This document shows, piece after piece, positions 34,851-47,229 of a DNA stretch of 64,000 nt. Position 1 is the stretch's first letter. Each line of letters opens with the position of its first letter. This stretch comes from Agrobacterium tumefaciens (GTDB lineage Bacteria > Pseudomonadota > Alphaproteobacteria > Rhizobiales > Rhizobiaceae): NCBI RefSeq assembly GCF_005221325.1, contig NZ_CP039888.1, forward strand, positions 2,749,501 to 2,813,500, in the 5' to 3' direction. The notes below the pieces were generated by a model, which searched no databases, had not been told where the DNA came from, and worked only from the letters and a program-made list of their open reading frames with translations. Position numbers and translations under genes: made by a program.

Positions 34851-35185
34851 ATTGCGCGACCGAGCTTTTAATCTTGACTCGTCGCATCATGAAATATTAT
34901 GTAAGCAATGCTGACGTAATTCAGTGTGTCTCATTGCCGGAAATGCCGGTCACCAGGGAACGCGATGCGAACGACGACGATCATTATTTGCGAGAAAGCG
35001 GCCATTGCCGCCACGCCGTTTGACGGCCGCAAAACGACCGTTCGCGCCATTAAACGCCGATAAGCAGAAATAAAGAGGAGCAGCCAGGTCGCCTGCGGCT
35101 CCGCCCGCAGAGTGCCGGCTGACGCGCCGGGTTTTCGGGGAAAGAGGGCGATACCGCGCGAAATGCGCAACGAGAGGAGAGTGCC
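34851..35185 (+). promoter_or_regulatory. Upstream region of the gltB-like operon
   Basis: A 335-base gap with no credible gene. A possible promoter is TTGACT at 34874 with TATTAT at 34895 or TTATGT at 34897, roughly 290 bases before the start codon, which would leave a long leader. GAGAGGAGA just before 35186 is a good ribosome site. I see no known riboswitch or nitrogen-regulator box by eye. Confidence 0.35.
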
Positions 35186-38100
35186 TTGAGTGTGACGGAG
35201 CAAAAATTCGGCCTTTACGATGCGGCTTTTGAAAAAAGCAGCTGTGGCGTCGGTTTCATCACCCGCAAGGACGGCGTGCAGACGCATGATGTGCTGAAGC
35301 GCGGCCACGAGGCGCTCTGTGCCGTGCCGCATCGCGGCGGCATGTCGGCGGAAGGTGTTGGCGATGGCGCCGGCGTGTCGCTCGACCTGTCGCTCGCCTT
35401 TTTTAGGGAGCTGACGGGAAGTGAAGCGTTGCAGGCCGGCCGCTTCGGCGTAGGCAATTTTTTTCTGCCGCGGAACCCTGCTTTTCATGACGAAGCGGTC
35501 AGCATCATCGGCAGCGCGTTAGAGGAACAGGGCTTTTCGGTCCTGCTCGTCCGCGATGTCCCGGTGAATGAGGCGGCCATCCGTCCCGCCGCCATCCCTT
35601 ACCAGTTACCTATCCGCCAATGGGTCTTTTCGGCTCCGGTGGAATGCGCAACCCTTGCCGAATTCGACTGGCGTATTCACAAGGCGCTGCTTGCCATCGA
35701 GGCGCTGGCCTATACCGTGCCGGAACTCGCCGGGTTTTATCCGCTGTCGCTCAGCGCGCGTACGCAGGTGCTCAAGGGGCGTCTGAACTCTCAGGAGGTC
35801 ATGCCCTATTTCTGCGACCTGACCGATCCGCGCCATGAAGTGCATACGATGTATTTTCACACGCGGTTTTCCACCAATACCGATCCGCATCCCTCCATGG
35901 CGCAGCCCTTCCGTCTGATGGCGCATAATGGCGAGCTCAACACCGACAAAAAGAACCGGCTGTCCGAAGCGGCCGTGGCGCTGGCCAAGAATGCCAGCAT
36001 CGTCAGGCCCAAGGGCCAGTCGGACAGCTGCCGGCTGGACCAGACATTGCAGGCGCGGGTGATGGAGGATGGTCTCGACCTCGTCACCGCCGTGGTCTCT
36101 ATGATGCCGCCTGCCTGGGAAAACGACGACACCCTGTCGCCGGGCGTGAAGGCGATGCTGGAATATTTCTCGCTATATGAGGAAAAGAATGACGGCCCGG
36201 CCGCGCTGATCTTCGGCGATGGCGCCATCATCGGCGCGCGTCTCGATCGCCTTGGCCTGCGCCCGCTGCGCACGGTCGAGACGGAGGAGTACCTCTGTGT
36301 CATGTCGGAGGCGGGGCAGATCGCCTTTCCGGCCGAAAGCGTCATCCGTCGCGGCCGCATCGAGGCGGGCGGCATGCTCTATTACGATCACGCTGACCGT
36401 CGCGCATTTTCCACGGTCGAGGCGCTGGAGCTTCTGGCCTCGCGGCGGGACTATCCCTCACTCCTGTCTGAAGCGCGGGTCATGCTTGCCGACTTGCCGG
36501 AAGTGCTTGCCGAAAAACAGGGTTCGCCGCTTCGCTATAATGGCGATCTGGAACGGCACCAGCGTTATGTCGCCTATTCGCACAATCAGGAAAGCTTCAA
36601 GTTTCTGATGGACCCGATGCTGGCTTCCGGCGCGGAAAAGATCTCCGCGATGGGTTATGGCAATGCCATCAACGCGCTATCCGATCAGGAAGGCGGGGTC
36701 GCCAAATATTTCTCGCAACGTTTCGCCCAGGTCACCAACCCGCCGCTCGACAGTATTCGCGAGGCTGACGGCATGACGCTACGCGTGGCTCTCGGCGCAA
36801 AGCCGAACAGCGGTGCGAAGAAGGCCCGCCAGATCGTCGTGCGTTCCCCGATCCTGACCCACCTCGACATGCTGCGTATTCGCGAGCAGCCCGAAACGCC
36901 CGTTCGCCGTTTCGAAATGCTTTATGCACCGGTCGTCGATGCTGCGGACGCCAATGAAGCGGCCCTCCGGCAGGCGATCGATGGCCTCTGCGATGAGGTC
37001 GTGGCTTTTGCGGCGGAGGAAGGCGGCATTGCCGTCATCACCGACCGGCACGTTTCGGCGGGCCGCGCCGCTCTGCCGATGATTATGGTCGTTTCCGCCA
37101 TCAATCAGCGGCTGATCGAGGAAGGCCTGCGGCTTCGTATTTCCCTGATCGTCGAAAGCGGGCAATTTTCCTCCTCGCATCACATCGCAGCCGGCCTGGG
37201 TTTTGGCGCTTCGGCCGTCTATCCGCTCGGCGTGCAGTTCCGTGCCGAAGAGAAGTTTGGCGCCGATGCCGACAAGGCCTTCAAGCGCTTCGCCAAGGCG
37301 GCCGAGAAGTCGCTGATGAAGACCATGGGCAAGGTCGGACTCTGCACGGCGGAAAGCTATATCGGCGGTGAGTTCTTCGAGCCGAACTTCCTCGATACCA
37401 ACGATCCGGTGCTGAAGCGTTATTTCCCGAATGTGAAGACCCCGGTCGGTGGCGTCACCTTCGCCGTCATCGCGCAGGCTGTCGCCGACTGGCACCGCAA
37501 AGCGCTGTCGGTGAAGGGTGAAAACGACATTCCGCTGCTCGGTCTCTTCAAGGAACGCGCCGAAGGTGCGGGCCACTCCTATGGCACGACGGCCGTGCGC
37601 GGTTTTGTTGATATGACGGAGGAGAAGATCGGTTTCGACAAGGGAACCGAAAACGAGGAGGCGCTGCGCCTTCTGCCGCTCAACCGGCTGGAGGATGCCT
37701 TCGGTCTCAACGATGCGGCCTATTATCACAACAGTTTCGACCGGCTGACCCCGGAAGCGATCGACGCATTCGAGGTAACGCCCGGTTATCGCTCCTTTGC
37801 CCGCATGATGGCGGAAGAAAGAGCGCGCCGCCCGGCCGCCCTGCGCGATGTTCTCGACCTGCCGGCCGACGTGACCTTCGCCGGTTCGGCGGAAGAGTTC
37901 CGCCGGGAAATGGGCCGTTTTTCCAGACAGGGCAATAACAGCTTCATGGTGCGTGGATTGCGCTGCGAAGAGGCTGGAGACGGTGCGTTCCGGCTGCAAT
38001 TGACCGGGCTGCACGGCCATGAACTTGCCCGCCTTTCCGCACTCGGCCAGTCGTTGCTTGACCGCTTCGGTGACGATATCGCCGGCCATTGGCTGGAAGG

Positions 38101-40690
38101 CGGCGCGCTCATGGTTCAGGCGAAGGGAGAGGCATCCGCCTATCTGTCGCTTATCCGCACCGCACCGGAGAGTATTCCGCTTGAGACAGTGCAAAAGGCG
38201 AGCGAGATCACCAAGACGCTGGCATCGGGCGCCATGAGCCACGGCGCGCTGGTTGCCGCTGCCCATGAGGCGGTGGCGCATGGCACCAACATGGTCGGTG
38301 GCATGTCGAATTCGGGCGAGGGCGGCGAACATATCTCCCGTTACGGCACCATCCGCGCCTCGCGCATCAAGCAGTTTGCCTCTGGTCGTTTCGGCGTCTG
38401 GGCTGGATATCTTGCCGATCCAATGCTGGAAGAGATCGAGATCAAGATCGGCCAGGGCGCAAAGCCGGGCGAAGGCGGGCAGCTGCCGTCCCCCAAGGTG
38501 ACGGTGGAGATCGCTGCGGCACGCGGTGGCACGCCGGGCGTCGAGCTGGTCTCGCCACCACCGCATCACGATACCTATTCGATCGAGGATCTGGCCCAGC
38601 TCATCCACGATGCCAAGGCGGCGCGCGTGCGGGTCATCGTCAAGCTCGTCTCGTCGGAAGGCATTGGCACCATCGCCGTCGGCGTCGCCAAGGCGGGTGC
38701 GGATGTCATCAATGTCGCCGGCAATACCGGCGGCACGGGTGCTGCCGCCGTCACCAGCCTCAAATATACCGGCCGCGCCGCTGAAATCGGCATCGCCGAG
38801 GTGCATCAGGCGCTCTGCGCCACGGGCCTGCGTGCCAAGGTGCTGTTGCGCTGCTCCGGCGCGCACCAGACCGCAAGCGACGTGGTGAAGTCGGCGTTGC
38901 TCGGCGGCGACAGTTTCGAGTTCGGCACGACCGCGCTGATGATGCTGAAATGCGTCATGGCGAAGAACTGCAACATCAAGTGCCCGGCCGGTCTCACCAC
39001 CAATCAGGAAGCCTTCAACGGCGATCCGCGGGCGCTGGCGCAATATCTCATGAACATCGCCCATGAAACGCGCGAGATTTTGGCAGGGCTTGGAATTGCC
39101 TCGCTGCGGGAAGCCCGTGGTCGTTCCGATCTTCTTCACCTCCTCGATCATCCGGCAAGCGTCGGCCAGCTTGACCTCCGGGCAATGCTTGCCGTGGTCG
39201 AGGAGGTGAAGATCGACAGCCCCGTCTATATGGAAAAAGACTTCGCACTCGACGATGCCTTCATCGAACTCGTGCGTTCGGCTCTGGTCGACAGCAGGCG
39301 CGAAAACATCGAACTTGGCGGGAACCGTTTCCTCAACAATTGCAATAAGAGCGTCGGCGGCCAGCTTGCCGTCGATATCGAACGCATGCTGAACCACGAA
39401 CTTTCCGAAGAGCAGCTGGATTCGCTTCCGGCCGTCAAGCGGGATAGTCGTGGCCGCCATTTCCTGGAACCGGGGTCAGTGCGCATCGATACCTCAGGTT
39501 CGGCCGGTCAGTCCTTCGGCGCTTTCTGCAATGACGGCATGGTCATGGTCCATACCGGCACCTGCAATGACGGCGTCGGTAAGAGCGCCTGCGGCGGCAC
39601 CATCGTCGTGCGCTCGCCCGGCGGCGGATCGGAAGAGGCTGGCGGCAATGTGCTGGTCGGCAATTTCGCGCTGTTCGGCGCCACTGGCGGCCGGACCTTC
39701 GTGGAAGGGCAGGCGGGCGACAGGTTCGCCGTGCGCAACTCCGGCGCAACCGCCGTTGTGGAAGGCGTTGGCGATTTCGCCTGCGAATACATGACCAACG
39801 GCGCCGTTCTCAACCTCGGCAGTTTCGGCAAGGGGTTTGGTAATGGCATGAGCGGCGGCTTTGTTTATCAATATGATCCCTATGGCGATCTGCCGAAGAA
39901 GGTCAGCCACGATTCGATCCTGCTCGGTTCGATCACCGGCGAGGATGAACAGGCCGCGATCCACAATCAGGCCGTCCACCAGCTTCTGACCCTGCATGTC
40001 GCGGAAACCGGCTCTGCCAAGGCGGCATGGCTTCTGGAAAACTGGGAAAGCGAGCAGCATAATTTCGTCTACGGCATGCCGCGCGCCCTGCTGCTCTATC
40101 AGGACAGCGATGAAATTCTGAAAGCCAAGCCCCGCAAGGAGTTGCTGGAGGAACTGGCCTCTGCGCTTGCCGCCCACCAGCTGCGCAAGTTCAAGCTCGC
40201 CTATCGTGACCGCAAGGCCGTGCTGAACGGAACGGTGCCGGGTTATGGCGAGACGGACACGGAGGAGATGTATGCGCTCATCAACAACTATGCCGTCTTG
40301 AGCATGGCGCAGGCCATCGCGTTGCAGCGGGTGCCGATGGCATCCGGTCCTTCCGATCCCGCCATCGAAAAAGCCGTGCGCAATCTCATCCTCACGGAAG
40401 ATTATGCGCTGATGCAGCGTCTGCTGAAATATGCACGCGAGGCGCTTTCCGATCACAGCGACGAGCAACTTGCGGTGATGATCGCCGCCAAGCGGCTCGA
40501 TGACTACAAGCAGGCGCTGGCACGCCGGAACATCTGGTCGGTAGATAGTCCCGGCACCTATGGCTGGATCATTCAGCAGAGTTGTAAAAACATCGAGAAG
40601 ATCGGCCGTCTGCCGGGTTTCGAAGAGCTTTTTGCCGCTCGCGCCATTCCGGACCTCGCCACCGCATCCAGTCAAAACAGGGCAGCATGA
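35186..40690 (+). CDS. GltB-like glutamate synthase large subunit, extended and atypical
   Basis: Protein of 1834 residues, against about 1500 for ordinary GltB. A 19-residue propeptide precedes Cys20 (SSCGVGFI), the expected N-terminal nucleophile of the glutamine amidotransferase domain; HTRFSTNTDP and RLMAHNGELNT are its other active-site segments. The central domain (about 480-780) and the FMN synthase domain follow (NMVGGMSNSGEGGEH, AGNTGGTGAAAVTSLKYTG). The Fe-S cysteines are C1256-x5-C1262-x3-C1266; usual GltB has x5/x4. The GXGXG domain (SAGQSFGAFCNDG) ends near residue 1630, followed by about 200 extra, helix-rich residues of no known domain. The start is TTG 35186 behind GAGAGGAGA. 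It overlaps a diflavin reductase gene by 4 bases where gltD would be expected. Glutamate synthase activity is likely but not proven. Confidence 0.88.
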   Translation: MSVTEQKFGLYDAAFEKSSCGVGFITRKDGVQTHDVLKRGHEALCAVPHRGGMSAEGVGDGAGVSLDLSLAFFRELTGSEALQAGRFGVGNFFLPRNPAFHDEAVSIIGSALEEQGFSVLLVRDVPVNEAAIRPAAIPYQLPIRQWVFSAPVECATLAEFDWRIHKALLAIEALAYTVPELAGFYPLSLSARTQVLKGRLNSQEVMPYFCDLTDPRHEVHTMYFHTRFSTNTDPHPSMAQPFRLMAHNGELNTDKKNRLSEAAVALAKNASIVRPKGQSDSCRLDQTLQARVMEDGLDLVTAVVSMMPPAWENDDTLSPGVKAMLEYFSLYEEKNDGPAALIFGDGAIIGARLDRLGLRPLRTVETEEYLCVMSEAGQIAFPAESVIRRGRIEAGGMLYYDHADRRAFSTVEALELLASRRDYPSLLSEARVMLADLPEVLAEKQGSPLRYNGDLERHQRYVAYSHNQESFKFLMDPMLASGAEKISAMGYGNAINALSDQEGGVAKYFSQRFAQVTNPPLDSIREADGMTLRVALGAKPNSGAKKARQIVVRSPILTHLDMLRIREQPETPVRRFEMLYAPVVDAADANEAALRQAIDGLCDEVVAFAAEEGGIAVITDRHVSAGRAALPMIMVVSAINQRLIEEGLRLRISLIVESGQFSSSHHIAAGLGFGASAVYPLGVQFRAEEKFGADADKAFKRFAKAAEKSLMKTMGKVGLCTAESYIGGEFFEPNFLDTNDPVLKRYFPNVKTPVGGVTFAVIAQAVADWHRKALSVKGENDIPLLGLFKERAEGAGHSYGTTAVRGFVDMTEEKIGFDKGTENEEALRLLPLNRLEDAFGLNDAAYYHNSFDRLTPEAIDAFEVTPGYRSFARMMAEERARRPAALRDVLDLPADVTFAGSAEEFRREMGRFSRQGNNSFMVRGLRCEEAGDGAFRLQLTGLHGHELARLSALGQSLLDRFGDDIAGHWLEGGALMVQAKGEASAYLSLIRTAPESIPLETVQKASEITKTLASGAMSHGALVAAAHEAVAHGTNMVGGMSNSGEGGEHISRYGTIRASRIKQFASGRFGVWAGYLADPMLEEIEIKIGQGAKPGEGGQLPSPKVTVEIAAARGGTPGVELVSPPPHHDTYSIEDLAQLIHDAKAARVRVIVKLVSSEGIGTIAVGVAKAGADVINVAGNTGGTGAAAVTSLKYTGRAAEIGIAEVHQALCATGLRAKVLLRCSGAHQTASDVVKSALLGGDSFEFGTTALMMLKCVMAKNCNIKCPAGLTTNQEAFNGDPRALAQYLMNIAHETREILAGLGIASLREARGRSDLLHLLDHPASVGQLDLRAMLAVVEEVKIDSPVYMEKDFALDDAFIELVRSALVDSRRENIELGGNRFLNNCNKSVGGQLAVDIERMLNHELSEEQLDSLPAVKRDSRGRHFLEPGSVRIDTSGSAGQSFGAFCNDGMVMVHTGTCNDGVGKSACGGTIVVRSPGGGSEEAGGNVLVGNFALFGATGGRTFVEGQAGDRFAVRNSGATAVVEGVGDFACEYMTNGAVLNLGSFGKGFGNGMSGGFVYQYDPYGDLPKKVSHDSILLGSITGEDEQAAIHNQAVHQLLTLHVAETGSAKAAWLLENWESEQHNFVYGMPRALLLYQDSDEILKAKPRKELLEELASALAAHQLRKFKLAYRDRKAVLNGTVPGYGETDTEEMYALINNYAVLSMAQAIALQRVPMASGPSDPAIEKAVRNLILTEDYALMQRLLKYAREALSDHSDEQLAVMIAAKRLDDYKQALARRNIWSVDSPGTYGWIIQQSCKNIEKIGRLPGFEELFAARAIPDLATASSQNRAA

Positions 40691-42456
40691 TGAAGATACC
40701 TTACATTCCACAGGATGCACCCTTCAACGGCGACCAGCGCGCATGGCTCGCCGGCTTTCTGGCCGGACTACACTCCCGCACTGCTATCGGTCTGGAGACA
40801 TCGGTGGCAGCTGCTGCGCCCAAAGCGGCGGCCAGCGTGCTGAACATCCTTGTCGGCACCCAGACAGGCAATGCCGAAGCGCTTGCGATGGATATCGCCG
40901 CTGCGGCGCGCACTCAGGGCATGCAGCCGGTGGTAACGGCTCTGGATGATGTCTCCATGGACAGCCTCGGCTCCATGAAACGGGTCATCGTCGTCACTTC
41001 GACCTATGGCGAAGGTGAAATGCCTGACAATGCCCAGCTGTTCTGGGAGGCGCTTGCCGCTGATGGCGCGCCGCGGCTGGACGAGATGAATTTCGCCGTA
41101 CTTGCCTTGGGCGATACAGGTTATGACGGGTTCTGCCAGGCGGGCAAGCTCATCGATACGCGGTTCGAGCAACTCGGCGGCAAGCGCATGAAGACGCGTA
41201 TCGACTGCGATATCGATTTTGAAGATGCGGCCGCCGCATGGATCGGTGAGACCCTGCCGCTTGCGCTAGCTGTCGATGGCGGCAAAGAAGCGGCTGTCAC
41301 CATGCCAGACATCGCCGGGCAGCCGGCGCGGGCAAAGTCGGGCTGGAACCGCAAGAACCCCTATTCGGCAAAGGTGAGCGTTAATCGCCGCCTGTCCGGT
41401 CCCGGCTCGTCCAAGGAAATCCGTCACTACGAATTCGATCTCGGCGAAAGCGGGCTCGATTATGAGGCGGGTGACGCACTTGGTGTTGTTCCCCTTAACG
41501 ATCCGAAACTGGCCGGCGCGCTGCTCGACCATTTCGGAGCGAGCGCAGACAGCCAAATCGCCGGGTTGGACCGGTCGGTTGGCGATGCGCTTCTCAACAT
41601 GTACGAGATTTCAACGCCCTCACGCGAACTGGTGGCTGAGATCGGCAAACGCGCGGGTCATGACGAACTCGGCCACATCCTTGCGAATGGTGATCGGGAA
41701 CAGCTAGCCGCCTTCCTCTGGAGCAAGGATATTCTCGATCTGCTCAATCTTGGCGGAAAGCCACTCTTCGAACTTGCCGAATTCGTGACCTTCCTGAAAC
41801 CCTTGCAGCACCGCGCCTATTCCATCTCCTCCAGCCCTCTGGTTGCGAAAGACAGCGTGCATCTGACGATCGCCAGCGTGCGATATCGCGCCGACGGCCG
41901 GGAGCGTGGTGGCGTTTGCTCCACCTATCTCGCGGACCGGGTGGAGGCAGGGCAGAATGCCGGCATTTTCGTCTCGCCCAACAAGGCATTCCGCGTCCCG
42001 CAGGACGATAATGCGCCTGTTATCATGGTGGGACCGGGCACGGGCATCGCGCCCTTCCGGGCCTTTTTGCAGGAACGGCTGGCACGGGGCGCCAAGGGCA
42101 GGAACTGGCTGTTTTTCGGCGACCAGCACCGGCAATCGGACTTCATCTACGAAGACGAACTTGGCGACATGAGCCACGATGGCGTGCTGACGCGTCTCGA
42201 CCTCGCCTTTTCACGGGATCAGGTGGAGAAAATCTATGTCCAGACCCGCATGCGGCAGAACGGCAAGGCACTGTATCAATGGCTTGAGGAGGGCGGTTAT
42301 TTCTACGTCTGCGGCGATGCGACCCGCATGGCAAAGGATGTCGATGACGCCCTGCACGGCATTATCAGCGATGAGGCCGGCATCTCCGCCGAGGCGGCTA
42401 GCGACTATGTAAACCGGCTGAAGCGCGAAAAACGCTATCTGCGCGACGTCTATTAG
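40687..42456 (+). CDS. CysJ-like NADPH diflavin reductase partnered with the GltB-like protein
   Basis: Diflavin oxidoreductase of 589 residues. A flavodoxin-like FMN domain (residues 53-195: VGTQTGNAEA, TSTYGEGEMPD, LALGDTGYDGF) is followed by the FAD-binding region (RAYSISSSP, GGVCSTYLAD) and the NADP domain (VGPGTGIAPFRAFLQER, FFGDQHRQSDF, GYFYVCGDATRMAKDV), ending YLRDVY with the usual terminal aromatic residue. The layout equals the sulfite reductase flavoprotein (CysJ). No cysI lies nearby; instead the ATG overlaps the gltB-like stop (ATGA), so it probably feeds electrons from NADPH to that enzyme. A 50-residue N-terminal lead-in precedes the FMN domain. Confidence 0.88.
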   Translation: MMKIPYIPQDAPFNGDQRAWLAGFLAGLHSRTAIGLETSVAAAAPKAAASVLNILVGTQTGNAEALAMDIAAAARTQGMQPVVTALDDVSMDSLGSMKRVIVVTSTYGEGEMPDNAQLFWEALAADGAPRLDEMNFAVLALGDTGYDGFCQAGKLIDTRFEQLGGKRMKTRIDCDIDFEDAAAAWIGETLPLALAVDGGKEAAVTMPDIAGQPARAKSGWNRKNPYSAKVSVNRRLSGPGSSKEIRHYEFDLGESGLDYEAGDALGVVPLNDPKLAGALLDHFGASADSQIAGLDRSVGDALLNMYEISTPSRELVAEIGKRAGHDELGHILANGDREQLAAFLWSKDILDLLNLGGKPLFELAEFVTFLKPLQHRAYSISSSPLVAKDSVHLTIASVRYRADGRERGGVCSTYLADRVEAGQNAGIFVSPNKAFRVPQDDNAPVIMVGPGTGIAPFRAFLQERLARGAKGRNWLFFGDQHRQSDFIYEDELGDMSHDGVLTRLDLAFSRDQVEKIYVQTRMRQNGKALYQWLEEGGYFYVCGDATRMAKDVDDALHGIISDEAGISAEAASDYVNRLKREKRYLRDVY

Positions 42457-46492: not shown

Positions 46493-46809
46493 ACCGCTTT
46501 CACTTCCCCAATCACTGGTGTTGAACGACTTCACTAGAGCAAGTTAGGTTCAAAATGAAGCGCTGCAAGGGCAGAGGCCGTTCCGGCCCCATTCTTTGTC
46601 TTCAGAACCTTCTTTGCAGAAGTCATTACCTCAATATGCCGTCCGCATACAGGAACCATCCGGCTGGAACCAGAGGAAATTTGCAAGAATGGCCGGTTTA
46701 CAGCCATTTGCGACACTCGGCGGCGCTGAAACTATTGAAAGCATTCGCCGCAAAAGATATATGCTATTGCAATCGACGGGTTTCATACCTCTGTTTGGAA
46801 TGGGATTGC
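46493..46809. promoter_or_regulatory. Divergent control region between fabA and irr
   Basis: A 317-base gap holding both promoters. I looked for an RirA site (TGA-N9-TCA) and an Irr/ICE-type site; the nearest is TTCAGAACCTTCTTTG at 46601, which has the wrong spacing. No gene or hairpin with a T-run is present. Confidence 0.4.
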
Positions 46810-47229
46810 ATGGCATTTGACGCCACATTGGATATCGGAACGAGGCTGCGGCGTTCAGGGCTGCGGCCCACGCGTCAGCGTGTGGCTTTGGGCGATCTTC
46901 TTTTCGCAAAGGGCGATCGCCACCTGACGGTCGAAGAACTGCATGACGAGGCGGTCACCGCCGGCGTGCCCGTTTCTCTCGCCACGGTCTACAACACGCT
47001 GCATCAGTTCACTGAAGCCGGCCTGATCCGCGTTCTCGCCGTGGAGGGTGCCCGCACCTATTTCGATACGAACGTTTCTGATCACCATCACTTCTTCGTG
47101 GAAGGTGAGAACGAGGTTCTCGATATTCCCATCAACAATCTCCAGATCGACAATCTGCCGGAAGCGCCCGAGGGCATGGAAATCTCCCATGTGGACGTGG
47201 TCATCCGCCTTCGCCGCAAGCGCGGTTGA
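46810..47229 (+). CDS. irr: Iron response regulator Irr (Fur family)
   Basis: Fur-family transcription factor of 139 residues that in Rhizobiales responds to haem status and represses or activates iron genes when iron is low. The winged-helix N-domain includes GLRPTRQRVALGDLLF and SLATVYNTLHQFTEAGL. The dimerisation domain has the three consecutive histidines of Irr (SDHHHFFVE, H92-H94), a haem-sensing site. The N-terminal Cys-Pro haem motif of Bradyrhizobium Irr is absent, as in other Rhizobiaceae. Its place beside fabA is the usual rhizobial order. ATG start at 46810. Confidence 0.93.
   Translation: MAFDATLDIGTRLRRSGLRPTRQRVALGDLLFAKGDRHLTVEELHDEAVTAGVPVSLATVYNTLHQFTEAGLIRVLAVEGARTYFDTNVSDHHHFFVEGENEVLDIPINNLQIDNLPEAPEGMEISHVDVVIRLRRKRG

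Follow-up and report, generated by a model that had tools for sequence, protein, structure and literature searches.

Together with glutamine synthetase, glutamate synthase forms a key route by which cells incorporate ammonia into biomass. The accessible part of a 2021 review describes three forms of the enzyme, namely GltD-coupled, ferredoxin-dependent, and fused NADH forms (PMC8097209). In this work, a 64,000-nucleotide stretch of the Agrobacterium tumefaciens genome (contig NZ_CP039888.1, positions 2,749,501 to 2,813,500; hereafter "the window") was analysed, which carries a gene for an enlarged glutamate synthase large subunit directly followed by a gene for a CysJ-like diflavin reductase. 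We use the label GltB* for the 1834-residue large protein and for its family. In current annotation, GltB* is named glutamate synthase-related protein, and the reductase sulfite reductase subunit alpha. It is highly probable, in our view, that the pair constitutes a new type of two-component NADPH-dependent glutamate synthase representing a third electron-input mode; the role of the reductase as donor, the type of the iron–sulfur (Fe-S) cluster, and the docking of the two proteins are what we infer. The new element is the electron-input partner of an otherwise known enzyme.

Architecture and conservation of the gltB*–reductase pair

The open reading frames, their junction, and the predicted domains agreed with a preliminary description of this DNA, which had reported an 1834-residue GltB homologue overlapping by 4 bases a gene for a reductase with flavodoxin, flavin adenine dinucleotide (FAD), and NADPH domains, and neither gltD nor cysI adjacent to them. 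Neither of these two genes was found in the whole window. The junction reads gcATGATGaag, where the stop codon TGA and the first ATG share ATGA; translation of the reductase could equally well start at a second ATG 3 bases further on, as several relatives begin with MKxP. The host genome bears a canonical gltB-gltD elsewhere, on contig C2. A further protein with a Glu_synthase domain (open frame of 547 aa; G000:C2:1575951-1576931) was observed besides GltB and GltB*.

The GATase_2, Glu_syn_central, Glu_synthase, and GXGXG domains of GltB* all scored above the Pfam cut-offs, and its best solved structures by sequence were GltB proteins. Cys20 was invariant across an 18-row alignment, and the N-terminal cysteine pattern was present in 98 of 99 family copies. 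Met489 corresponds in the alignment to the Met in the SMGDD motif of a solved GltB, GltB* retains the glutaminase- and synthase-domain motifs SNxGEGGE, ASGRFGV, QGAKPGEGGQLP, and SPPPHHD, and 296 alignment columns are identical across 11 GltB* and two canonical GltB proteins. Against the NCBIfam equivalog PRK11750, GltB* obtained 1037.1 bits, below the cut-off of 1047. The cluster cysteines are spaced C-X5-C-X3-C in 99 of 99 GltB* copies, compared with C-X5-C-X4-C in 17 of 19 canonical GltB frames (the other two gave no match). GltB* thus keeps the three cysteines but not the canonical spacing of the [3Fe-4S] cysteines. A loop of the flavin mononucleotide (FMN) domain is SGAHQTAS-like in GltB* and DGGLKTG in two aligned canonical proteins. 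Two regions specific to GltB*, an insertion and a C-terminal domain, may be docking parts for the reductase. The model of the insertion (approximately residues 815–992) is good only for approximately residues 920–992, predicted to form a small alpha/beta domain for which the PDB gave no clear match (best Foldseek E 0.11). The C-terminal domain is predicted to be all-helical, with a model confidence (predicted local distance difference test, pLDDT) of 89, and no confident PDB or Pfam relative was found for it (best Foldseek E 0.89); within the modelled C-terminal piece, the first 47 residues, which are the end of the canonical part, alone match GltB structures by sequence.

The reductase shows the three-domain composition of CysJ (Flavodoxin_1, FAD_binding_1, and NAD_binding_1), and its top-scoring solved structure by sequence was E. 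coli CysJ, with which it shares the SRDQxxK (NADPH), RxYSIxSS (FAD), and C-terminal DVY motifs. The N-terminus is shorter than that of CysJ, with a helix-like DQxxWLxGFxxG motif retained. It scored 605.9 bits against TIGR01931, the CysJ equivalog, below the cut-off of 668.15, and 472.6 against PRK06214 (sulfite reductase subunit alpha), above the cut-off of 432.

Named-genome loci were compared using the best 80 of at least 557 confirmed stretches, i.e., the closest relatives. These loci, at approximately 67–96% identity, belong to Rhizobiales, Rhodobacterales, Mycobacterium/Nocardia/Rhodococcus, Pantoea/Erwinia/Mixta, Methylobacillus, Lampropedia/Comamonas, SAR92, and Verrucomicrobiales, so that, by record titles, the pair spans Alpha-, Beta-, and Gammaproteobacteria, Actinomycetota, and Verrucomicrobiota. 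The preliminary description had proposed gene order across genomes as a check, and wherever a locus allowed a judgement, the reductase gene followed gltB*: immediately downstream in 79 of the 80 (the remaining contig, L077, stops inside gltB* and was left out of the counts), in 14 of 14 Rhizobiales loci (two of them contigs already within the 80; the locus of genome G199, on a 3.4 kb contig, was left out), and in all three further loci from the order of Pantoea. Plasmid records above 60% identity carried the pair in nine of nine cases; the next listed plasmid records reached only 34–37%, and the listed canonical plasmid copies are 34–37% identical to GltB* in aligned pieces. Among the 100 pair loci searched, cysI was found in none and gltD in three, each time directly behind a canonical gltB as its partner. 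Pairwise distances of GltB* and the reductase correlated with r = 0.93 over 95 pairs, with a maximum of 0.13 in 500 permutations; because both genes travel together, this shows co-inheritance, not contact. The 95 pairs remained from 96 after L078 was dropped for its shortened frame. Two contigs are present twice among the 96 pairs and 100 loci (L033/L120 and L034/L122), and the two genomes behind them occur in both the Rhizobiales and the 50-named-genome sets mentioned below. By sequence comparison, GltB* and the reductase are one conserved unit, paired far beyond chance.

In L078, the gltB* frame of just 1492 residues suggests a frameshift or assembly error. A larger operon around the pair was considered and rejected after clustering of the open reading frames over 81 loci, in which no third gene of the unit was seen. 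One cluster of approximately 241-residue proteins was present in 24 loci of several genera, but distant from the pair (in Pantoea it precedes rpoN, at the position of the ATPase gene lptB in E. coli). Another, in 16 loci, included a member whose strand is opposite to that of the reductase, and the other clusters were limited to one family or group or to 2–4 loci. In Ketogulonicigenium vulgare (L128:10706-19419), the pair is situated on a plasmid typed as conjugative and is followed by a siderophore receptor and a transport cluster.

In a tree of 37 partner and nine other reductases, the 37 partner reductases formed one clade with support 100/98. Outside this clade were CysJ copies adjoining cysI, nitrate-reductase fusions, and a copy beside a NirA-family gene. 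The pairing of this reductase with a cysI product elsewhere, which the preliminary description had named as a finding that would speak against its proposal, was thus not encountered. A Paracoccus plasmid (L126:6911-8614) bears a partner-clade reductase without GltB*, with genes for a glutamine synthetase, an aldehyde dehydrogenase, and an amidotransferase nearby. In Mycobacterium sp. D16R12 (L027:5137-6753) and Mycobacteroides sp. LB1 (L031:5189-6763), a second, divergent reductase lies approximately 3 kb upstream of gltB*, in the former adjoining a streptomycin-adenylyltransferase-like gene.

Replacement of gltBD and the proposed electron path

At the chromosomal position of E. coli gltBD, Pantoea, Erwinia, and Mixta carry the gltB*–reductase pair. 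The order in E. coli K-12 is rpoN-hpf-ptsN-rapZ-npr-yrbL-mtgA-elbB-arcB-yhcC-gltB-gltD, followed further on by sspB-sspA-rpsI-rplM-zapE-degQ. In 16 of 16 loci of the Pantoea/Erwinia/Mixta type, rpoN, hpf, ptsN, rapZ, npr, mtgA, and arcB are located upstream of the gltB*–reductase pair, while yrbL, elbB, yhcC, and gltD were found in none of them. Downstream, sspB, sspA, rpsI, rplM, zapE, and degQ are present in 15 of the 16; the last locus has none of these and shows the arcB side only. Within the order of Pantoea, GltB* occurred in only 4 of 197 genomes, namely the Pantoea centre and three tandem genomes (L137, L138, and L139) in which gltB-gltD and gltB*-reductase are situated side by side in a cluster of approximately 14–16 kb, each large subunit with its own partner gene. 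A record titled Enterobacter ludwigii EnVs2 (L050) displays the Pantoea/Erwinia-type arrangement of gltB* at the gltBD locus; its label may be wrong.

For P. ananatis AJ13355, the accessible part of a 2025 paper reports that no close homologue of the E. coli glutamate synthase is present, that the putative gltB is 64% identical to the A. tumefaciens large subunit, and, citing Hara et al. 2012, that the gltB knockout causes glutamate auxotrophy (PMC12364357); in the main text of that paper, as accessible, neither gltD nor sulfite reductase appears as a term. We take the published gltB to be GltB*, since the only GltB-type protein in P. ananatis LMG 2665 is the GltB* of locus L056.

Genomes with GltB* alone were also identified outside this group. 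Of 249 genomes drawn from the Rhizobiales, the order of the host, 16 carry GltB*, and in 14 of these it is the sole Glu_syn_central protein; two of the 14 are incomplete (G176, 75%; G199, 71%). The 14 include four single-contig genomes of one genus (G119, G175, G197, and G219), taken to be Cohaesibacter because G119 and Cohaesibacter sp. ES.047 share the same GltB* (100% identity). Among 50 named genomes, which stand for 50 of the 80 loci, GltB* was the only GltB-type protein in 15: all seven tested Pantoea/Erwinia/Mixta-type genomes, Methylobacillus rhizosphaerae, and seven metagenome-assembled genomes, where gaps could conceal another GltB copy. The other 35 also have a canonical-type GltB. 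Whether genomes with the pair also carry gltBD, a check proposed in the preliminary description, hence received a divided answer: many named genomes have both large subunits, and the 15 named genomes and 14 of the Rhizobiales have GltB* alone. The GltD model TIGR01317 scored above its cut-off in nine of nine canonical-GltB genomes and in none of 20 GltB*-only genomes, both sets chosen by hand; this model passed in only four of the 14 control genomes, and GltD of the enterobacterial type may escape it. In six of the seven Pantoea/Erwinia/Mixta-type genomes, it gave only weak partial matches; the seventh is Erwinia phyllosphaerae, whose YgfT-like protein is treated below.

GltB*-only genomes may have further glutamate sources such as glutamate dehydrogenase (GDH). 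The match to the small-GDH domain was absent or weak in the Cohaesibacter-type genomes G119, G149, and G239 and strong but partial in G084, G175, and G219, and a large NAD-GDH was identified in 15 of the 16 GltB*-bearing Rhizobiales genomes. In P. ananatis, GDH is located on a megaplasmid, according to the accessible part of PMC12364357.

Taken together, the constant pairing, the replacement of gltBD at its own locus, the missing GltD over the cut-off where GltB* stands alone, and the knockout auxotrophy favour the third electron-input mode that the preliminary description had suggested. Very probably, GltB* works as a genuine glutamate synthase that receives electrons from NADPH through the flavodoxin-type reductase. 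As in GltB, the protein would hydrolyse glutamine, channel the ammonia to 2-oxoglutarate at the FMN, and make glutamate. NADPH would reduce the FAD of the reductase, which in turn would reduce the FMN of the flavodoxin domain; the latter would hand single electrons to the Fe-S cluster of GltB* and from there to the synthase FMN, where the imine formed from 2-oxoglutarate and ammonia would be reduced. With electron entry at the Fe-S cluster, the reductase would stand in for GltD, with its FAD and two [4Fe-4S] clusters, or for ferredoxin, applying the logic of CysJ-to-CysI transfer to GltB. The FMN of CysJ-type reductases has a potential of about -330 mV. Glutamate synthase cofactors, for which the accessible part of PMC8097209 gives -280 mV ([3Fe-4S]) and -240 mV (FMN), would be within its reach.

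Several observations weigh against this scheme. The changed Fe-S spacing and FMN-domain loop mean that the cofactors of GltB* may differ from those of GltB. Three reductases within the partner clade have no directly adjacent GltB*, which makes other uses possible, and the partner label requires three changes on the reductase tree. The auxotrophy report is second-hand, and the knockout may have been polar on the reductase gene. GltD relatives in some GltB*-only genomes could in principle donate electrons: Erwinia phyllosphaerae has a 641-residue YgfT-like protein above the cut-off of the broader model TIGR01318, and in Cohaesibacter G119 a full-length match below the TIGR01317 threshold passes TIGR01316 (named NADPH-dependent glutamate synthase), although this protein is NfnB-like and adjoins an NfnA-like gene. 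The link between the GltB* and reductase proteins is itself drawn from their genes.

GltB* might alternatively be a glutamate synthase fed mainly by ferredoxin or free flavodoxin, the reductase recycling the carrier or acting as an auxiliary donor. The three kept cluster cysteines would fit this, and ferredoxin-dependent glutamate synthases need no dedicated subunit, as stated in the accessible part of PMC8097209; the adjacency of the reductase to GltB* in every judgeable locus, its covariation with GltB*, and its own fused flavodoxin domain, with which no free carrier is needed, make the explanation unlikely. A role of the reductase in sulfite reduction, serving CysI in the host genome with its place beside GltB* being incidental, draws on the cysG-cysI-type operon without cysJ on host contig C1 and on the reductase being the sole FAD_binding_1 protein found in that genome. 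However, such a protein was absent from 172 of the 249 Rhizobiales genomes (counted irrespective of cysI) and is thus commonly missing in the order. All seven Pantoea/Erwinia/Mixta-type genomes selected for this search contain a further FAD_binding_1 match, in six of them in a frame of the CysJ-like size of 619–632 aa. With cysI missing from the pair loci and the cysI-adjacent CysJ copies outside the partner clade, we regard this role as extremely improbable.

The preliminary description had also considered that the pair might catalyse a different glutamine-dependent reductive reaction, whose product would not be glutamate. The related N-methylglutamate synthases catalyse a reaction of this kind, and the altered FMN-domain loop and cluster spacing, the two extra domains, and the canonical-type GltB present in most named hosts could be accommodated by such a function. 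It is nevertheless disfavoured by the auxotrophy reported for the P. ananatis gltB knockout (accessible part of PMC12364357), by the many genomes in which GltB* is the sole GltB-type protein, by the replacement of gltBD at its locus, and by the conserved SNxGEGGE, ASGRFGV, and QGAKPGEGGQLP motifs, and we consider it very unlikely. A glutamate synthase receiving its electrons from the adjacent reductase remains our preferred explanation.

Features of the locus, upstream elements, and iron

The features of the locus are compiled in Table 1.

Table 1. Positions of the gltB*–reductase pair, its domains, and upstream elements in the 64-kb window.
Feature	Positions	Strand	Basis or remark
Promoter-like TTGACT overlapping TGA-N9-TCA	34874..34889	+	Shared with window-like rhizobial loci
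Palindrome-like element GTAAGCAATGCTGAC (GTCAG-N5-CTGAC in several relatives)	34901..34915	+	Conserved in all 19 window-like rhizobial loci
GltB* (enlarged glutamate synthase large subunit), 1834 aa, TTG start	35186..40690	+	Open reading frame list; Pfam domains
Glutaminase (GATase_2) domain, residues 20-424	35243..36457	+	Starts at predicted catalytic Cys20 (SSCGVGF)
Glu_syn_central domain, residues 460-732	36563..37381	+	Pfam
GltB*-specific insertion, approximately residues 815-992	37628..38161	+	Alignment to two canonical GltB; model
FMN/2-oxoglutarate synthase domain (Glu_synthase), residues 993-1304	38162..39097	+	Pfam
Fe-S cluster cysteines C1256-X5-C1262-X3-C1266	38951..38983	+	Alignment; family pattern count
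GXGXG beta-helix domain, residues 1422-1589	39449..39952	+	Pfam
GltB*-specific C-terminal all-helical domain, approximately residues 1640-1834, candidate docking site	40103..40687	+	Missing from two aligned canonical GltB
CysJ-like NADPH diflavin reductase, 589 aa, ATG start	40687..42456	+	Open reading frame list; Pfam; closest solved structure
Flavodoxin (FMN) domain of reductase	40846..41241	+	Pfam
FAD-binding domain of reductase	41350..41928	+	Pfam
NADPH-binding domain of reductase, SRDQxxK motif as in E. coli CysJ	42025..42345	+	Pfam; alignment

In the window-like rhizobial loci, TTGAYT-N7-TCH was present upstream of gltB* in 19 of 19, with an exact TGA-N9-TCA in register in 14, compared with none of six canonical gltB upstream regions for the former pattern and one of six for any TGA-N9-TCA. 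The palindrome-like element is situated just downstream of the promoter-like TTGACT in the same 19 loci. The TGA-N9-TCA, spotted by eye after the promoter alignment, matches what we take to be the RirA operator pattern; the TTGACT within it could be no more than a -35 box. The accessible part of PMC5863699 describes RirA and the IRO box without giving operator letters. The iron regulator gene irrA is located approximately 4 kb downstream of the pair (window positions 46555-47229), adjoining fabA-fabB-fabI.

Of the 18 actinobacterial loci, many of which are from related mycobacteria, 13 have their best IdeR-like site, out of the entire approximately 17–25 kb, in the stretch of about 450 bases that precedes gltB*, three of these being ties; 12 of the 13 have at most six mismatches to TTAGGTTAGSCTAACCTAA. 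The signal was absent in the other five loci, all of Rhodococcus. According to the accessible part of PMC8464063, which gives the IdeR consensus, native targets show 2–6 mismatches. In nine actinobacterial genomes, canonical gltB had 6–10 mismatches, reaching six in two of them, and gltB* had fewer in seven, the same number in one, and more in one; for canonical gltB, a slightly longer stretch was scanned, and one copy where a genome has two. This signal is suggestive only. Patterns for sigma-54, GlnR, Lrp, Irr, and Fur gave nothing clearly above shuffled sequence. Possible Fur-like sites with five mismatches were present upstream of gltB* in two of the three tandem loci, and no Fur-like site stood out in the Pantoea-type loci, where GltB* is the sole enzyme.

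GltBD contains one [3Fe-4S] and two [4Fe-4S] clusters, as given in the accessible part of PMC8097209, and therefore 11 iron atoms. GltB* with its diflavin partner would need approximately three if its cluster is [3Fe-4S]. The upstream sites and iron counts, together with the siderophore genes behind the plasmid pair of Ketogulonicigenium, are suggestive of an iron-sparing isozyme. A broader proposal, for which we see slightly less than an even chance, is that the pair represents a third, diflavin-dependent and iron-sparing class that, by the GltBD cofactor counts, would need a single Fe-S cluster (3 Fe) instead of three (11 Fe). As a second copy, it would be induced when cells are starved of iron (through IdeR in Actinomycetota and the RirA-like site in Rhizobiaceae). 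It would have spread by transfer of the pair and, in lineages such as Pantoea/Erwinia and Cohaesibacter, would have taken over the housekeeping role of GltBD completely.

Significance and comparison with known systems

The preliminary description knew of no biochemical account of this pairing, and the pair likewise appears uncharacterised as far as the open PMC literature shows, which omits most subscription papers and in whose accessible parts no description of it was found. A P. ananatis review (PMC9231021) contains neither glutamate synthase nor gltB. If correct, the proposed electron-input mode would change the annotation of nitrogen metabolism in plant-associated, marine, and actinobacterial genera, explain how Pantoea-like bacteria live without GltD, supply a compact redox system for the engineering of glutamate-producing strains, and tie nitrogen assimilation to iron supply.

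When compared to GltBD, the pair has the same four large-subunit domains in the same order, is likewise a two-gene unit, and occupies the same chromosomal place in the Pantoea/Erwinia types. In contrast to the NADPH-dependent glutamate synthases, no GltD is encoded alongside; an FAD/FMN diflavin reductase takes the place of this FAD and two-[4Fe-4S] subunit. GltB* is also approximately 250 residues longer than the GltB of the host and has its own Fe-S spacing. With the ferredoxin-dependent glutamate synthases, it shares a single large subunit and an Fe-S cluster as the electron entry, while the extra domains and the adjacent gene for a dedicated NADPH reductase set it apart. The likeness to CysJ-CysI lies in a CysJ-like diflavin reductase whose flavodoxin domain would feed the Fe-S cluster of a large partner; however, this partner is GltB* and not the siroheme protein CysI, and the reductase belongs to a separate clade with a shorter N-terminus. 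Finally, the assimilatory nitrate reductases fused to a CysJ-like flavoprotein also have, by annotation, a CysJ-like module as a dedicated donor, but there the module is fused rather than separate and serves another catalytic partner.

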